In this document: piece by piece, positions 29,995 through 47,796 of the stretch
Position numbering within the stretch: position 1 is the first letter of the stretch
How the letters are laid out: each line of letters starts with the position of its first letter
Assembly (NCBI GenBank): GCA_947627135.1
Contig: CANQUV010000012.1
Span: 1 to 64,000 of the forward strand
Direction: 5' to 3'
Length of the DNA: 64,000 nt
Source: an uncultured Clostridia bacterium
GTDB lineage: Bacteria > Bacillota > Clostridia > Oscillospirales > Acutalibacteraceae
Position numbers and translations under genes: made by a program
Notes under the pieces: generated by a model
The model's database searches: none
Told to the model about the DNA's origin: nothing
The model's input: the letters and a program-made list of their open reading frames with translations, nothing else

Positions 29995-31668
29995 ATGATT
30001 AAAACTAATAAGAAAAAAAGTTTAGTAAAAACAGTCAGTTTGATAATTGCAATAGTTGTTTTATCAGTTTGTGTATGCGGATTAAATACTTTTGCGACTG
30101 ATGTGAATTACAACTTGACCACTGTAAACATTGATCCAAATAAATTTACTTCAAGTAAAACAAATTTTGATGAATCACTTTGTAATTATATTGCTCAAGA
30201 GATATCTGATCATGAAGAATATATTTACATAACTGATTATGACATAAGTACTCTTGAAATTTCTGATTTGTTTACAACAGTTGTCTATGAAAATCCTCAA
30301 CTGTTTTTTGTCAATCCTACAAGTATCAGATACAGTGCATCGGGAAATAAAGTTTTGGCTCTCGTTCCCACTTATATTTATAATGTTCAGGAAACTGCGG
30401 AAAAATCAGCAATATTGGAGGAAAACATAGAAAAACTTATTTCCGGTATAGATAATAACTGGAAAGATGAATTAAAAGCTCTTACTATTCATGATAATTT
30501 AATTATAAATTGTGAATATGCTTTAGATGAAGTTGCCGATAACGAAAGTGAAAATATTGATATTTATACAGCCTATGGTGCTTTAGTTGATAAAAAAGCT
30601 GTGTGTCAGGGATATACACTTGCGTATAATTATATGCTTTCAAAATTTGGGATCAATTCTCATTTCATATCAAGTTATGATATGAACCATGCTTGGTCAA
30701 TGGTACAAATTGACGGTAAATATTATCATGTTGATGTAACTTGGGACGACCCTACATACGATAAATTAGGTCAGGCTTATCATACATATTTTTTAAAAAG
30801 CGACAAAAAAATGTTAAATGATACTACCCAAAATAAACATTATAATTGGGATTCTGAGTATAAAGCCGAAAGCACATTATATGACGGCTATTTTTGGAAT
30901 GATATAAAAACAATCATTCCGTATATTAATGGAAATTTTTATTATATCAGTAACCAATCAGAAGATATTGGAAATATAATTAAATATGATGGTAATCATA
31001 AAACTTCAATTTTGAAAATGACTGACAGATGGTATGTAAATAGTTCTCATACATCATTTTGGAACAATAATTTCTCATATCTTGCAACAGATAAAGAAAG
31101 ATTATATTACAATACACCGGAAAATATTTATTCAGTTAAATTAGACGGAACAGACCAAAAGCTTGAATATACAATAAATACAGAGCAGGCAGCTAAAGGT
31201 TATATTTACGGTTTAAAATTAGATTCAGACGGATATCTTTATATTTCCGTAGTAGATAATCCAAATAGAAAAGTAACAAATTATAAAACCGTAAAAATTT
31301 CAGATGATCATAATGTACCTGTAACATCGGAGCCTGTAACATCAGAGCCGGTAACATCAGAGCCTGTAACATCAGAGCCGGTAACATCGGAGCCGGTAAC
31401 ATCGGAGCCGGTAACATCAGAGCCTCCTGTAACAGATAAAATTTTATTAGGTGATGTAGATCTTGACAAACACATAAATGTTAAAGATGCTACATTAATT
31501 CAGCTTTATGTAGCCGGATTGGGTACTCTGAATGAAAAGCAATTATTATCCTCCAATGTTGATAACAGTGATGGCGTTAATGTAAAGGATGCAACATTTA
31601 TACAGTTGTACTGCGCAAAATTAGGAGCCCAAGGAAGTCTTGTTGGAACATACATAGATAATACATAA
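29995..31668 (+). CDS. Secreted transglutaminase-like protein with VTSEP linker and C-terminal type I dockerin
   Basis: 'VDKKAVCQGYTLAYNYMLSKFGINSHFISSYDMNHAWSMVQIDGKYYHVDVTWDDP' (Cys/His/Asp triad) and 'KILLGDVDLDKHINVKDATLIQLYVAGLG...NVDNSDGVNVKDATFIQLYCAKLG'. Confidence 0.92.
   Translation: MIKTNKKKSLVKTVSLIIAIVVLSVCVCGLNTFATDVNYNLTTVNIDPNKFTSSKTNFDESLCNYIAQEISDHEEYIYITDYDISTLEISDLFTTVVYENPQLFFVNPTSIRYSASGNKVLALVPTYIYNVQETAEKSAILEENIEKLISGIDNNWKDELKALTIHDNLIINCEYALDEVADNESENIDIYTAYGALVDKKAVCQGYTLAYNYMLSKFGINSHFISSYDMNHAWSMVQIDGKYYHVDVTWDDPTYDKLGQAYHTYFLKSDKKMLNDTTQNKHYNWDSEYKAESTLYDGYFWNDIKTIIPYINGNFYYISNQSEDIGNIIKYDGNHKTSILKMTDRWYVNSSHTSFWNNNFSYLATDKERLYYNTPENIYSVKLDGTDQKLEYTINTEQAAKGYIYGLKLDSDGYLYISVVDNPNRKVTNYKTVKISDDHNVPVTSEPVTSEPVTSEPVTSEPVTSEPVTSEPVTSEPPVTDKILLGDVDLDKHINVKDATLIQLYVAGLGTLNEKQLLSSNVDNSDGVNVKDATFIQLYCAKLGAQGSLVGTYIDNT
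31318..31425 (+). repeat. 15-bp minisatellite encoding PVTSE
   Basis: Seven (c/g)c(t/g)gtaacatc(a/g)gag units in frame. Confidence 0.85.
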
Positions 31669-37017: not shown

Positions 37018-37728
37018 ATGTACATAGAAAAAGTAAGAAATATTGAGAATGTTTCTGAAATTAATACTGACAGAAATATTACTGCATATAATGGAATCTA
37101 TAACAGATATATAAAAAGAGTTATTGATTTTGTTTTGGCTATTATTTGCTTTATTATTTTATGTCCGATTTATTTAATTATTTCTGTTGCTATTGTAGTT
37201 GAAACTGGTTTTCCTGTTTTTTACAGAGCAGAACGCGGCGGATATAAAGGGAAAACTTTTAAAATATGTAAATTCCGTACTATGGTACAAAACGCAGATA
37301 AAATAGGCGGGGGTACTACTGCTCTTAATGACAGCAGGATAACTAAAGTGGGTAATTTCCTCAGAAAAACAAAGCTTGATGAAATTGCTAATCTTTTGAA
37401 TATTATTAAAGGTGATATGAGCTTTATCGGACCCAGACCCGAACTTTTGAGATATACAAATTTATATGAAGGCGATGAAAAATACATATTTCAGGTTCGT
37501 CCGGGAATAACCGATTATAGTTCCATTGAATTTATAAATTTAGATGAAATTGTCGGAGGAGAAAATGCCGACGAAATGTATGAAAAATATGTATTAAAAA
37601 AGAAAAATCAATTAAGAATAAAATATGCGGCAACAGTTTCCTTTAAAACAGATGTAACCCTATTTTTTAATACTGTATGGAGTGTTGTAAAAAAAGCGTT
37701 GTCATTTATTTTTAGAAAAAAGGGATAA
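37018..37728 (+). CDS. Polyisoprenyl-phosphate sugar-1-phosphate transferase (initiating transferase)
   Basis: 'YKGKTFKICKFRTMVQNADKIGGGTTALNDSRITKVGNFLRKTKLDEIANLLNIIKGDMSFIGPRPE'. Confidence 0.93.
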   Translation: MYIEKVRNIENVSEINTDRNITAYNGIYNRYIKRVIDFVLAIICFIILCPIYLIISVAIVVETGFPVFYRAERGGYKGKTFKICKFRTMVQNADKIGGGTTALNDSRITKVGNFLRKTKLDEIANLLNIIKGDMSFIGPRPELLRYTNLYEGDEKYIFQVRPGITDYSSIEFINLDEIVGGENADEMYEKYVLKKKNQLRIKYAATVSFKTDVTLFFNTVWSVVKKALSFIFRKKG

Positions 37729-38686: not shown

Positions 38687-39832
38687 TTGATTATATATTA
38701 TTCAATGTTAATATGCCCGTTAGTAGTTTATTTGTTTTATAGATTTACTGTGGGCAGAAAAATTAAATCGCTTGTTTATGCTCCTTATGCCAGTGATGAG
38801 AAATTAAATGAAATGTTTGATAAGATCCCGCTAATTTTTTGCCTTATAACTTTTGGTTACTTTATTTTTTGGATAGGCATGAGAACTTATATTGCGGATA
38901 CTTCACAGTATATACAGTCTTTTAATGATATTTCTGATAATTTTCAATCTGCATGGGAATCCATTGACTGGAATGGTAAGGCTCCGGGATTTAATGTTTT
39001 TAATGTTTTTTTTAAATCATTTATTTCTCAAGATTATCAATGTTGGCTAATGACTATTGCTGCTTTTAGCGGCCTCTGTATAATGTTTGCTTTGAGAAAG
39101 CATTCATGTAATTTCTTTTATAGCTCATTTTTATTTATTGCTTTGCTCACTTTTACATGGATGATGAACGGCATGAGGCAGTTTATTACAGTATCTGCAT
39201 TGTTTGCATTATCTGACTGGATCAAAAGAGGAAAGTTGATTCCTTTTATTTTAGCTGTAATATTGTTTTCTACAGTTCATACAACTTGTTTGCTGATGAT
39301 CCCTATATATTTTGTAGTAAGATGTAAACCCTGGAGCGGAAGAATTTTCTTGTTTCTTAGTGCAATTATTTTAATTTGTATATTTGCAGAACCGTTTTTT
39401 GAAGGTGTAGATAATATATTACAAGATACTAATTATAGTGGAGTAAGCCAGCAAATGCAGGTTGACAATGGAGTTAATCCCATAAGGGTTGCTTTTTATG
39501 CAGTTTTCCCTATAACGGCATATATTTATCAAGAAACTTTAATGAAAGAAAATGATAATGACCCTTATATAAATATTTGTGTAAATATGTCTTTAGTTAC
39601 TGCAGCATTGTATTTAGTGGGTATGTTTTCAAGCGGAATACTTATAGGAAGATTGCCTATTTATTGTGAGGTATATAACTTAATATTAATACCGTTGATG
39701 CTAAAGAAATGTTTCCCTGAAAAACAACAAAATTTAGTAATGTTTATAGCGACATTGTTGTTTTTCATTTTCTTTTATATTCAGATAAATGGTTTGGGTT
39801 ATATTAGTAATATAACAGGATATGTATATTAA
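38687..39832 (+). CDS. EpsG/Wzy-like polysaccharide polymerase
   Basis: Polytopic; 'RTYIADTSQYIQSFN', 'WMMNGMRQFITVSALFALSDWI' typical of EpsG; TTG start. Confidence 0.82.
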   Translation: MIIYYSMLICPLVVYLFYRFTVGRKIKSLVYAPYASDEKLNEMFDKIPLIFCLITFGYFIFWIGMRTYIADTSQYIQSFNDISDNFQSAWESIDWNGKAPGFNVFNVFFKSFISQDYQCWLMTIAAFSGLCIMFALRKHSCNFFYSSFLFIALLTFTWMMNGMRQFITVSALFALSDWIKRGKLIPFILAVILFSTVHTTCLLMIPIYFVVRCKPWSGRIFLFLSAIILICIFAEPFFEGVDNILQDTNYSGVSQQMQVDNGVNPIRVAFYAVFPITAYIYQETLMKENDNDPYINICVNMSLVTAALYLVGMFSSGILIGRLPIYCEVYNLILIPLMLKKCFPEKQQNLVMFIATLLFFIFFYIQINGLGYISNITGYVY

Positions 39833-39847
39833 AATAGGTGAAACTTA

Positions 39848-40746
39848 ATGAAAAAACATGCATATTTAATAATGGCTTTTAATCATTTTAACTTATTAAA
39901 AAAATTAATTCATTTAATTGATGACGAAAGAAATGATATATTTGTTCACATAGATGCAAAATCTAAAAGTTTTAAAGTGTCTGATTTTAACGATTGTGTT
40001 ACGAAATCCAATATTGTATTTATTCCCAGAACGGAAGTTTATTGGGCTGATTATTCTCAAACTAACGCAGAGTTATGTTTATTGCAAGAAGCTGTAAGTG
40101 CGTGTGGGGGGGGTATAAGTATTACCACCTAATAAGCGGAAACGATTTACCTATAAAAACACAAAATCAAATTCATGAATTTCTTGATAACAAGGATTAT
40201 GAATTTATTGGAATATTTCCTCAAGAAATATGGTATTCTTTACGTAGAGTAAAGTATTATCATCCGTTTACTCATAATAAATATTACAGAAAACATAAGG
40301 AATTAAAGATTTTAGATTTAGCACTTGAATATATACAAAGACTTTTTAAAGTTAATCGTTTAAAAAACACAGACATTAAAATTATTGATGGATGGAATTG
40401 GTTTACTATAACTGATAATTTTGCAAAATATGTATTAAGTAAAAGAGATTTTATTAAAAAAACATTTAGTAAAACAATCGCGAGCGATGAAATGATTATG
40501 CAAACAATGCTTTATAATTCTGACTTTTTTAAAAAAGTATATAATTTAGAGACTAAAGCAAAGGGTTCCCTTAGATATATTAATTTTATAAATGGGAAAC
40601 CATCTGTATTTAAAGAAAATGACTTTGATAGAATTATTAACGCTGATGAATCAATTTTTGCTCGTAAATTTGATCCCGATATTGATTCTAAAATAATTGA
40701 TAAAATATATAATTACATAGATAAAAAACAAAGTATGGGTGAATAG
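39848..40746 (+). pseudogene. GT14 (core-2/I-branching-like) beta-GlcNAc-transferase, frame-OFF at a G8 tract; probably phase-variable
   Basis: 39848-40132 and 40075-40746 match the N- and C-terminal parts of the intact paralog at 41171-42070 and are separated by a 1-nt frame problem at 40105-40112. Confidence 0.88.
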
Positions 40747-40901: not shown

Positions 40902-41140
40902 TAAATATGTCTTTAGTTATTGCAGCATTGTATTTAGTGGGTATGTTTTCAAGTGAAATACTAATATGAAGCCTGCCTATTTATTGTGAAGTTTATAATT
41001 TAATACTAATATCTTATTTGCTAAAAAAATATTTTACTGATAAACAAAAGAATTTTGTAATTGTAATAACCACGGTTATGTGTTTAGCATTTTTTTATAT
41101 ACAGACTAATAGCGTAGGTTATGTAAGTGATATTACGTGA
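40902..41140 (+). pseudogene. Remnant of the 3' end of an epsG-like gene
   Basis: Aligns with 39581-39825 (AATATGTCTTTAGTTAyTGCAGCATTGTATTTAGTGGGTATGTTTTCAAG...) but has stops. Confidence 0.85.
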
Positions 41141-41170
41141 AGTATAAAATAAAAACAGGGGTGATTTTAG

Positions 41171-42070
41171 TTGAAAAAACATGCATATTTAATAATGGCC
41201 TATAACAATTTTGATTTTTTAAAAAGGTTAATTAACTTATTGGATGATGAGAGGAATGACATTTATGTCCATATTGATAAGAAATCTTTGAATTTTAATG
41301 AATCAGAATTTAAAAATGCAACTAAATACTCAAAACTCACATTTATAGGCAGAAAACAGGTGCTCTGGGCAGATTATTCAGAGTTTGATGTAGAACTGGA
41401 TTTAATGCAAGCTGCACGAGAAGGGCAAAAAAAGGGGGGGGGGTATCACTATTATCATCTTTTATCTGGAATGGATTTACCTCTCAAAACACAAGATGAA
41501 ATTCATAACTTTTTTGATAGCAAAGATGAGGAATTTATAGGAATTGTACCCAAAGAATTTTGGTATTCAGTTCGCAGAGTTAAATTTTACCATCCATTTA
41601 CAAGTCTAAAATCTTTTAGAAAACATAAAACGTTAAAAATTTGCGATAGATTACTTGAATATTTACAAAGATTAGTAAGAATTAATCGTATAAGAGATTT
41701 AGATATAAAAATTATTGATGGATGGCAATGGGTATCAATTACTGATAATTTTGTTAAGTATTTGTTAGAAAATAGAAGTTTTATAGAAAAAACTTTTTCA
41801 AAAACTATTGCTTGTACCGAATTAGTTATGCAGACTATGGCATATAATTCAGAATTTCGTAAAAAAATTTATTGTATGGATGATTTAAAAGAGGGCTCTC
41901 AGAGATACATAGATTGGGGCAGAGGTAAACCTTATGTATTTAGAGAAAGTGATTTTGAAGATTTAATTAACAGTCCCTATATGTTTGCCAGAAAAATTGA
42001 TGTAAATACTGACAATAGAATTGCTGAAAAAATAATATCCTTTTTAAATAAAAAAGCGAAAAATGAGTGA
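41171..42070 (+). CDS. GT14 beta-GlcNAc-transferase-like (TTG start), intact with A7G10 tract
   Basis: 'KKHAYLIMAYNNFDFLKRLINLLDDERNDIYVHIDKKS...YHYYHLLSGMDLPLKTQDEIHNFF'. Confidence 0.85.
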   Translation: MKKHAYLIMAYNNFDFLKRLINLLDDERNDIYVHIDKKSLNFNESEFKNATKYSKLTFIGRKQVLWADYSEFDVELDLMQAAREGQKKGGGYHYYHLLSGMDLPLKTQDEIHNFFDSKDEEFIGIVPKEFWYSVRRVKFYHPFTSLKSFRKHKTLKICDRLLEYLQRLVRINRIRDLDIKIIDGWQWVSITDNFVKYLLENRSFIEKTFSKTIACTELVMQTMAYNSEFRKKIYCMDDLKEGSQRYIDWGRGKPYVFRESDFEDLINSPYMFARKIDVNTDNRIAEKIISFLNKKAKNE

Positions 42071-45264: not shown

Positions 45265-46380
45265 ATGAATTTAATTAGAGTTTTGCATGTAATTACAGGA
45301 ATTAGCAATCGGGGGGGGGCAGAGAACTATGTAATGAATATGTACAGAAATATAGACCGTACGAAAGTACAGTTTGATTTTCTCCTTCGCAGTCGAGAGG
45401 CAGCGTATGAAGAAGAAATAAAAAAACTGGGCGGACGAATATTTTATACATCAGAATATCCTCGGCATTTTATAAAAAACAAGAAAGAAGTAGAAGCGTT
45501 TTTTGAAAGTCATAAGGATTATGATATAGTTCATGTCCATGCAAATGCTCTAATTTATATGACCGTACTGAAAATTGCAAAAAAGCACAATATAAATTGC
45601 AGGATTATGCATAGCCACAATACAGATACAAAAAGACCAATATATAGAATTATACATAATTTTAATAAGCAATTTATAAATAAATGGGCAACAGATTACT
45701 TTGCTTGTTCTACCGAAGCCGGTAAATGGATGTTTAAAAATGATTTTGTGTTAAGAAAAAATGCAGTAGATGTAAATAAATTTCAGAAAGATAAAGAAGT
45801 ACGCAAGAAAATAAGAAAAGATTTAGGTGTAGAAGACAAGTTCGTAATTGGACATATAGGGCGTTTTGTTATTCAAAAAAATCATACATTTTTATTAAAG
45901 ATATTTAATGAGTATCATAAAAAAAATCCGGAATCTGTACTATTACTTGTGGGTGATGGGTATTTAGAAGAGGACATTAAAAACCTTGTAAATGAATACG
46001 GATTAAAAGATAGTGTTAAATTTTTAGGTAATCGTAGTGATGTTGATACTGTTTTTCAGGCATTTGACATTATGGTTTTTCCGTCATTGTTTGAGGGATT
46101 GCCGGTTGTAATAGTAGAAGCACAGGCAGCAAATGTACCATGTATAATTTCAGATAATATCACCGATGAAGTCTTAATAACCTCATCTGTTAAAAAGTTA
46201 TCTTTGGATGAGGAAGTAGAAACTTGGATCAAAAATATAAACCAATTTAAAAATTATGATAAGCCTTCTGAAGAAGAAATTATGAAAAAATTTATATTGG
46301 TCGGATTTGATTCAAAAAGTGCAGCAAAAGAATTACAATCCTTTTATTTGAATAAAGCATATCATAAGGTTAAAAATTGA
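45265..46380 (+). CDS. GT4 glycosyltransferase, paralog 1, with G9 tract
   Basis: 'HVITGISNRGGAENYVMNMYRNI', 'FPSLFEGLPVVIVEAQAANVPCIISDNI'. Confidence 0.9.
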   Translation: MNLIRVLHVITGISNRGGAENYVMNMYRNIDRTKVQFDFLLRSREAAYEEEIKKLGGRIFYTSEYPRHFIKNKKEVEAFFESHKDYDIVHVHANALIYMTVLKIAKKHNINCRIMHSHNTDTKRPIYRIIHNFNKQFINKWATDYFACSTEAGKWMFKNDFVLRKNAVDVNKFQKDKEVRKKIRKDLGVEDKFVIGHIGRFVIQKNHTFLLKIFNEYHKKNPESVLLLVGDGYLEEDIKNLVNEYGLKDSVKFLGNRSDVDTVFQAFDIMVFPSLFEGLPVVIVEAQAANVPCIISDNITDEVLITSSVKKLSLDEEVETWIKNINQFKNYDKPSEEEIMKKFILVGFDSKSAAKELQSFYLNKAYHKVKN

Positions 46381-46689: not shown

Positions 46690-47796
46690 ATGAGCTTAGT
46701 TAGAGTTTTGCATGTCATTACAGGAATGGGTAACGGAGGAGCAGAAGCATATATAATGAATATGTACAGAAATATAGACCGTACGAAAGTACAGTTTGAT
46801 TTTCTCCTTCGCAGTCGAGAGACAGCGTATGAAGAAGAAATAAAAAAACTGGGCGGACGAATATTTTATACATCAGAATATCCTCGGCATTTTATAAAAA
46901 ACAAGAAAGAAGTAGAAGCGTTTTTTGAAAGTCATAAGGATTATGATATAGTTCATGTCCATGCAAATGCTCTAATTTATATGACCGTACTGAAAATTGC
47001 AAAAAAGCACAATATAAATTGCAGGATTATGCATAGCCACAATACAGATACAAAAAGACCAATATATAGAATTATACATAATTTTAATAAGCAATTTATA
47101 AATAAATGGGCAACAGATTATTTTGCCTGTTCTACCGAAGCCGGTAAATGGATGTTTAAAAATGATTTTATATTAAGAAAAAATGCAATAAATATAGATA
47201 AATTTCAGAAAGATAAAGAAGTACGCAAGAAAATAAGAAAAGATTTAGGTGTAGAAGATAAGTTTGTAATTGGTCATGTAGGACGCTTTACTATTCAAAA
47301 AAATCATACATTTTTATTAAAAATATTTAATGAGTATTATAAAAAAAATCCGGAATCTGTACTATTACTTGTGGGTGATGGGTATTTAGAAAAGGACATT
47401 AAAAACCTTGTAAATGAATACGGATTAAAAGATAGTGTTAAATTTTTAGGTTCACGTAGTGATGTTGATACTGTTTTTCAGGCATTTGACATTATGGTTT
47501 TTCCATCATTAAATGAGGGTTTTGGAATTGCTGTTTTAGAAGCACAAGCAGCTGGTGTTTCTTGTATTATTTCATCTAATATACCAAATGAAGTTATACA
47601 ATCTTCAATTGTTAAAAAATTAAGTTTGGATGATACTGTTGATGAATGGGTAAAAAATATAGATATAATAAGGAATAGCGAAAAAATTGAGCAGAAAACA
47701 TCGATTAACGAATTAAAAATGGCCGGCTATGATATAAAGACTGCGGCAAAGAAATTACAATCCTTTTATTTGAGTAAATCACATCAGGAGAGTTAA
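46690..47796 (+). CDS. GT4 glycosyltransferase, paralog 2, without G tract
   Basis: N-terminal half near-identical to paralog 1 at DNA level; 'GMGNGGAEAYIMNMYRNI'. Confidence 0.9.
   Translation: MSLVRVLHVITGMGNGGAEAYIMNMYRNIDRTKVQFDFLLRSRETAYEEEIKKLGGRIFYTSEYPRHFIKNKKEVEAFFESHKDYDIVHVHANALIYMTVLKIAKKHNINCRIMHSHNTDTKRPIYRIIHNFNKQFINKWATDYFACSTEAGKWMFKNDFILRKNAINIDKFQKDKEVRKKIRKDLGVEDKFVIGHVGRFTIQKNHTFLLKIFNEYYKKNPESVLLLVGDGYLEKDIKNLVNEYGLKDSVKFLGSRSDVDTVFQAFDIMVFPSLNEGFGIAVLEAQAAGVSCIISSNIPNEVIQSSIVKKLSLDDTVDEWVKNIDIIRNSEKIEQKTSINELKMAGYDIKTAAKKLQSFYLSKSHQES

Follow-up and report, generated by a model that had tools for sequence, protein, structure and literature searches.

A G8 tract that splits a GT14-type glycosyltransferase gene is a probable phase-variation switch in an uncultured Clostridia bacterium

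A polysaccharide gene cluster of an uncultured Clostridia bacterium carries two GT14-type glycosyltransferase genes, one of which (copy a) is put out of frame by a run of eight Gs and the other of which (copy b) is intact. We asked whether such a gene is dead, wrongly assembled or switchable. The tract is very probably a slipped-strand contingency (phase-variation) switch that is OFF in the assembled genome, OFF referring to the state of the assembled consensus only. The window, by which we mean the whole 64-kb stretch of DNA analysed (31% G+C), belongs to contig C12 of the genome (G000), whose other contigs named below are C1, C2, C7 and C13. The two gene copies are laid out as follows.

39848..40132, plus strand: N-terminal ORF of GT14-type glycosyltransferase copy a (PF02485 positions 2-84)
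40106..40113, plus strand: G8 tract, the candidate switch, with the gene out of frame in the assembly (run census and frame reading)
40117..40746, plus strand: C-terminal piece of GT14 copy a, in another frame (PF02485 positions 90-214; 59% identity with the paralog)
41171..42070, plus strand: GT14-type glycosyltransferase copy b, intact (PF02485, 73 bits)
41434..41443, plus strand: G10 tract of copy b, at the site homologous to the G8 tract; reading frame kept (ON)

The frame of copy a starts at the ATG at 39848, which is preceded by AGGTG, and passes through the G8 tract to a TAA at 40130-40132, the stop that the original prediction had named; in the assembled G8 state this early stop falls after 94 codons. 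The tract thereby splits the gene into an N piece of 86 codons and a C piece of about 210 codons in a different frame, which stays open up to 40746 without a further stop. Out-of-frame runs in the neighbouring genes, by comparison, average 8 codons and reach 55 at most. In searches with the PF02485 profile (Core-2/I-Branching enzyme, CAZy GT14; curated cut-off 23.4 bits), the N piece scored 29.3 bits and the C piece 44.3 bits. The pieces match consecutive parts of the profile and align with successive parts of the paralog at 41171-42070, with 56% (N) and 59% (C) identity. Both the GT14 identity and the out-of-frame state, first proposed from the letters, are thus borne out. The predicted run of eight Gs is also present, one base downstream of the predicted 40105-40112, whereas the peptide after the tract, said to continue exactly as in the intact paralog, is merely similar to it (YKYYHLISGNDLPIKT versus YHYYHLLSGMDLPLKT). 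The tract is the sole lesion of copy a, so that a change in its length would be enough to switch a gene that is whole in every other respect. For the pair of GT14 paralogs, dN/dS 3' of the tract was about 0.31 (NG86; dS upstream of the tract was saturated), which indicates that the C half of copy a was constrained during most of its history.

The surrounding cluster contains two further tracts, at 41434-41443 and 45311-45319, on which the original prediction was silent. The features that bear on them are these.

37018..37728, plus strand: bacterial sugar (phosphate) transferase at the cluster start (PF02397)
38687..39832, plus strand: EpsG-family membrane protein of the polysaccharide cluster (PF14897)
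40902..41154, plus strand: 3' part of another EpsG gene, lying between the two copies of GT14 (77% identity with 39582-39834)
45265..46380, plus strand: GT4 glycosyltransferase gene (PF00534) that contains a G9 tract and is in frame (ON)
45311..45319, plus strand: G9 tract of that GT4 gene, in the region of its GGAE motif
46690..47796, plus strand: GT4 paralog without a tract, with CGGAGGA at the site

Reading of the ORFs added a flippase-like protein, RmlC/RmlD-like enzymes and a CapD-like epimerase to this cluster. The GT14 paralogs differ in tract length at their homologous site, with G8 in copy a and G10 in copy b. Of the GT4 paralogs, one carries a G run where the other uses ordinary glycine codons for GGAE (CGGAGGA). 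The two GT4 genes are near-identical for about 360 nt past the tract site, and the tract is found in one only. The EpsG fragment between the GT14 copies is, judged from its sequence, a tandem duplication relic. Elsewhere in the window, 29995-31668 translates into a secreted protein of transglutaminase-like type, in which a PVTSE linker is repeated and the C-terminus resembles a dockerin.

Runs of this kind are far from what chance would supply. The window holds a G8, a G9 and a G10 run yet not a single G6 or G7, in agreement with the earlier remark that the G8 tract is non-random. When proteins were kept and synonymous codons redrawn (GGG makes up 5% of glycine codons), 151 kb of coding sequence was expected to contain 0.08 runs of at least eight Gs, against 8 observed in intact ORFs. 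This sample was picked around tracts and the genome-wide figure is the fair one: scaled to the whole genome, about 0.9 such runs were expected versus 10 in genes (p ~5e-8). C runs on the sense strand of the 151-kb sample reached a maximum of 6.

Across the assembly (1.78 Mb, draft, 27 contigs) we counted 12 runs of at least eight Gs. The length distribution is bimodal, with 15 G6, 2 G7, 4 G8, 6 G9 and 2 G10 runs, as tallied by length from the listed places. Seven of the 12 lie on the C12 polysaccharide cluster, the contig amounting to 4% of the genome (p 1.6e-7). Ten of the 12 fall within glycosyltransferase, acyltransferase or membrane-protein genes, and together with a G7 run on C13 they make 11 in-gene tracts biased to surface-structure genes, all on the sense strand (11/11). 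The genes concerned are the two GT14 copies, a GT4, a GT2, a FUT8-like fucosyltransferase, three of acyltransferase-3 type, a hexapeptide acyltransferase, a large membrane protein and the glycosyltransferase with the G7 run. Beyond the tracts already given, the set comprises the following.

C12 64142: tract in the GT2 gene, OFF (G10)
C12 65132: tract in the FUT8-like fucosyltransferase gene (slightly below the Pfam cut-off), OFF
C12 66143: tract in an acyltransferase-3 gene, ON (G9)
C12 69966: tract in the gene of a 578-aa membrane protein without a Pfam match, ON
C1 10954: tract in a hexapeptide-repeat acyltransferase gene (slightly below the cut-off), ON
C1 88729: run of at least eight Gs in no convincing gene
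C2 63251 and 64482: two tracts in tandem acyltransferase-3 paralogs, both ON
C7 11550-11557 (G000:C7; L030 9551-9558): G8 run in Shine-Dalgarno position, 6 nt 5' of the dnaG start
C13 41886: G7 run splitting a glycosyltransferase gene (PF04488/PF05704)

In every OFF gene of the genome the tract is the only lesion, and the C-terminal frame stays open for about 180-280 codons. The dnaG gene with the G8 run upstream (C7 11550) appears to be part of a dnaG-rpoD operon. The tandem acyltransferase-3 paralogs (G000:C2, L029 8411-10733) have near-identical ends, including the G9 tract, and a diverged middle, a pattern in their sequences that suggests gene conversion.

Comparison with congeners provided the decisive evidence for the contingency reading, because orthologous tracts differ in both length and state between species. 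The GT2 ortholog is G10 and OFF in the window genome and G11 and ON in G160, with conserved flanks, and the acyltransferase ortholog at C12 66143 is G9 and ON in the window genome, G11 and OFF in G159, and tract-free in G160. Such differences and absences among the three genomes indicate that tracts are gained and lost on a species scale. The G159 locus is syntenic with the window (sugar transferase and aldo-keto reductase each 88% identical, EpsG 81%, transketolase halves 91-93%) and holds a single GT14 gene (47%) without a tract; the switch is thus not conserved at the GT14 gene. Among the congeners compared we found no GT14 ortholog with a tract, the scan of genome contigs returned only relatives of 36-53%, none with a tract at the GT14 site, and a scan of viral contigs for the exact flanks gave no same-species copy. 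In tract-free relatives the site is a variable loop directly before a conserved YxYYHLxSGxDLP block, a position at which extra glycines would be tolerated. As to the genus at large, 50 of 161 genomes had any run of at least eight Gs by the pattern used; the window genome tops the list with its 12, followed by G021 and G025 with 8 each. Tract genes of G021, G046, G061 and G098, named from translations and without profile searches, are of epimerase, GT2, acyltransferase, hexapeptide-transferase and asparagine-synthase types.

Congeners also carry poly-G in genes of phage-type DNA methyltransferases, named from translations only, at G025:C20 83-87 kb (L080), G001:C74 (L081) and G002:C75 (L083), and likewise in G107:C21 (L104), G118:C107 (L109) and G099:C4 (L105). 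Some seem ON and some OFF, and phase-variable prophage methylation is a possible reading of these sequences. Three contigs finish within poly-G: G002:C75 at its end (L083, G10), G002:C72 at its start (L086, G10) and G003:C55 at its end (L085, G13). Heterogeneous tract lengths would produce such breaks, and so would a failure of sequencing within G runs.

Three other accounts of the split gene must be weighed against a switch. Copy a might be a recently dead pseudogene, hit by a one-off indel in its G run and decaying while copy b remains functional, and the adjoining paralog, the EpsG fragment between the GT14 copies and the single GT14 gene at the syntenic locus of one congener all suit such a history. 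It would leave unexplained, however, why all OFF genes of the genome are broken solely at G tracts whose very presence is improbable, why the corresponding tract of the paralog is even longer, and why other orthologous tracts of the cluster shift in length with state changing both ways; we regard a dead gene as very improbable. An error of sequencing or assembly, the true length being in frame and the gene constitutively ON, draws some force from the draft state of the assembly in 27 contigs, from the difficulty of sequencing G runs and from the congener contigs that stop within them. Against it, 13 A8 or T8 runs lie inside window ORFs and none is linked to a frameshift, which makes a general homopolymer error unlikely; the A/T-run control thus lends no support to general miscalling. 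A wrong length would, moreover, still leave an improbable tract, so that the switch would survive with its state reversed. We give this account only a slim chance.

Long G runs may be slippery to polymerases and ribosomes, and the C frame of copy a is intact. Programmed or transcriptional slippage could accordingly yield some full-length enzyme from G8, the tract tuning expression rather than plainly turning it off. Tract lengths differ among genes and species, though, and the majority of in-gene tracts keep the frame as they stand, with no fixed slip site; tuning in place of switching is therefore hardly likely, while as leakiness such slippage could coexist with it. Returning to the contingency switch, several observations count against it: G8 is at the short end of switching lengths, the intact MutL of the genome would lower the rate, the syntenic GT14 gene of G159 is tract-free, and 2 of the 12 runs of at least eight Gs lie outside genes. 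On its side stand the tract set, the single lesions, the A8/T8 control and the differences in length and state among congeners, which together support the phase-variable reading originally made of this tract.

As a mechanism, we propose that replication slippage (slipped-strand mispairing) would add or remove Gs in a tolerant glycine loop, predicted to sit right before the conserved SGxDLPxKT motif of the GT14-type enzyme. With a G count in copy a that is not a multiple of three, the ribosome would meet the early stop and make no full enzyme; with a multiple of three, the full enzyme would be produced and, going by its family alone, would presumably attach a branch sugar to a cell polysaccharide. 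The roughly 11 in-gene switches together would give a clonal population many coat variants. Length switching within one population, the branching reaction and a selection exerted by phage, immunity or competing cells are the steps that we infer. MutL is intact in the window genome, so that switching would proceed at mismatch-repair-proficient, that is, lowered rates, and a loss of mismatch repair is unsupported as a cause.

Coat switching by slippage has mostly been studied in Gram-negatives and mycoplasmas; in gut bacteria, invertible promoters are the more familiar device. Campylobacter possesses poly-G phase-variable glycosyltransferases for capsule and LOS, and the bacterium studied here probably varies its coat by random switching in the manner of Campylobacter and Neisseria. 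Neisseria has poly-G switches in surface-glycan genes (LOS, pilin glycosylation), with a modal tract length of 9 and lengths of 9-15 in LOS enzymes (PMC5953494). Shared with both genera are intragenic poly-G of similar length, surface-glycan transferases as targets and several independent switches per genome; unlike these Gram-negatives, the host is an uncultured Clostridia bacterium with intact MutL. A Gram-positive gut commensal with such a switch is Bifidobacterium breve, in which an intragenic G-tract (~G9-G12) splits a sortase-pilus gene into two ORFs, as here, and slippage was measured by maximum-depth sequencing (PMC9187656). Two loci of pilus genes were studied there, in contrast to about 11 loci in glycosyltransferase and acyltransferase genes. 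For M. agalactiae, the same paper mentions a base added or omitted at a G tract (PMC9187656). The likeness to Mycoplasma lies in surface polysaccharide, whose phase variation there is high-frequency; Mycoplasma differs in being wall-less, and that mention establishes no multi-gene tract set. Bacteroides, also gut commensals with random switching of surface polysaccharide, switch their capsule by invertible promoters (PMC12355684), that is, by inversion of promoter DNA and not by homopolymer slippage in coding sequence.

The kind of mechanism is therefore already known from Neisseria, Campylobacter, Bifidobacterium and Mycoplasma. What this case adds is a new host lineage, a phasome of many loci and a GnTA flank signature that is so far unexplained. 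A search of open-licence papers yielded no account of poly-G switches in polysaccharide genes of Clostridia, a result that speaks only weakly for novelty. From a poly-G phasome of several loci in a Clostridia lineage one would predict combinatorial coat heterogeneity, with up to 2^11 combinations from 11 binary in-gene switches. Such heterogeneity would matter for sensitivity to phage, for recognition by the immune system and for the tracking of strains, and is masked in consensus assemblies.

The flank signature consists of a TA directly 3' of 10 of the 11 in-gene tracts, against 11-16% after G3-G6 runs of the same genome. Summed over 150 genomes of the family, the counts were 46 for G9-TA and 7 for AT-G9, the reversed control; their significance is optimistic given the non-independence of related genomes and duplicated tracts. 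The GnTA excess spans codon phases, genes, species and genera. A common protein motif is ruled out by tracts ending in different codon phases, and a promoter -10 element does not suit the in-gene flanks, which mostly lack the final T. The idea that a sequence-specific process creates or maintains the tracts, in place of simple random slippage with selection, is tentative and in our view rather unlikely; such a process might start from a preferred seed, come from biased replication or repair, or act through selection for the flank itself. At some intergenic tracts of other genera, a following TATAAT or TACAAT fits a -10 element. In other genera of the family (L154, L155, L159 and L161), G tracts stand immediately 5' of TATAAT- or TACAAT-like hexamers, and some of these may be promoter-spacer switches.
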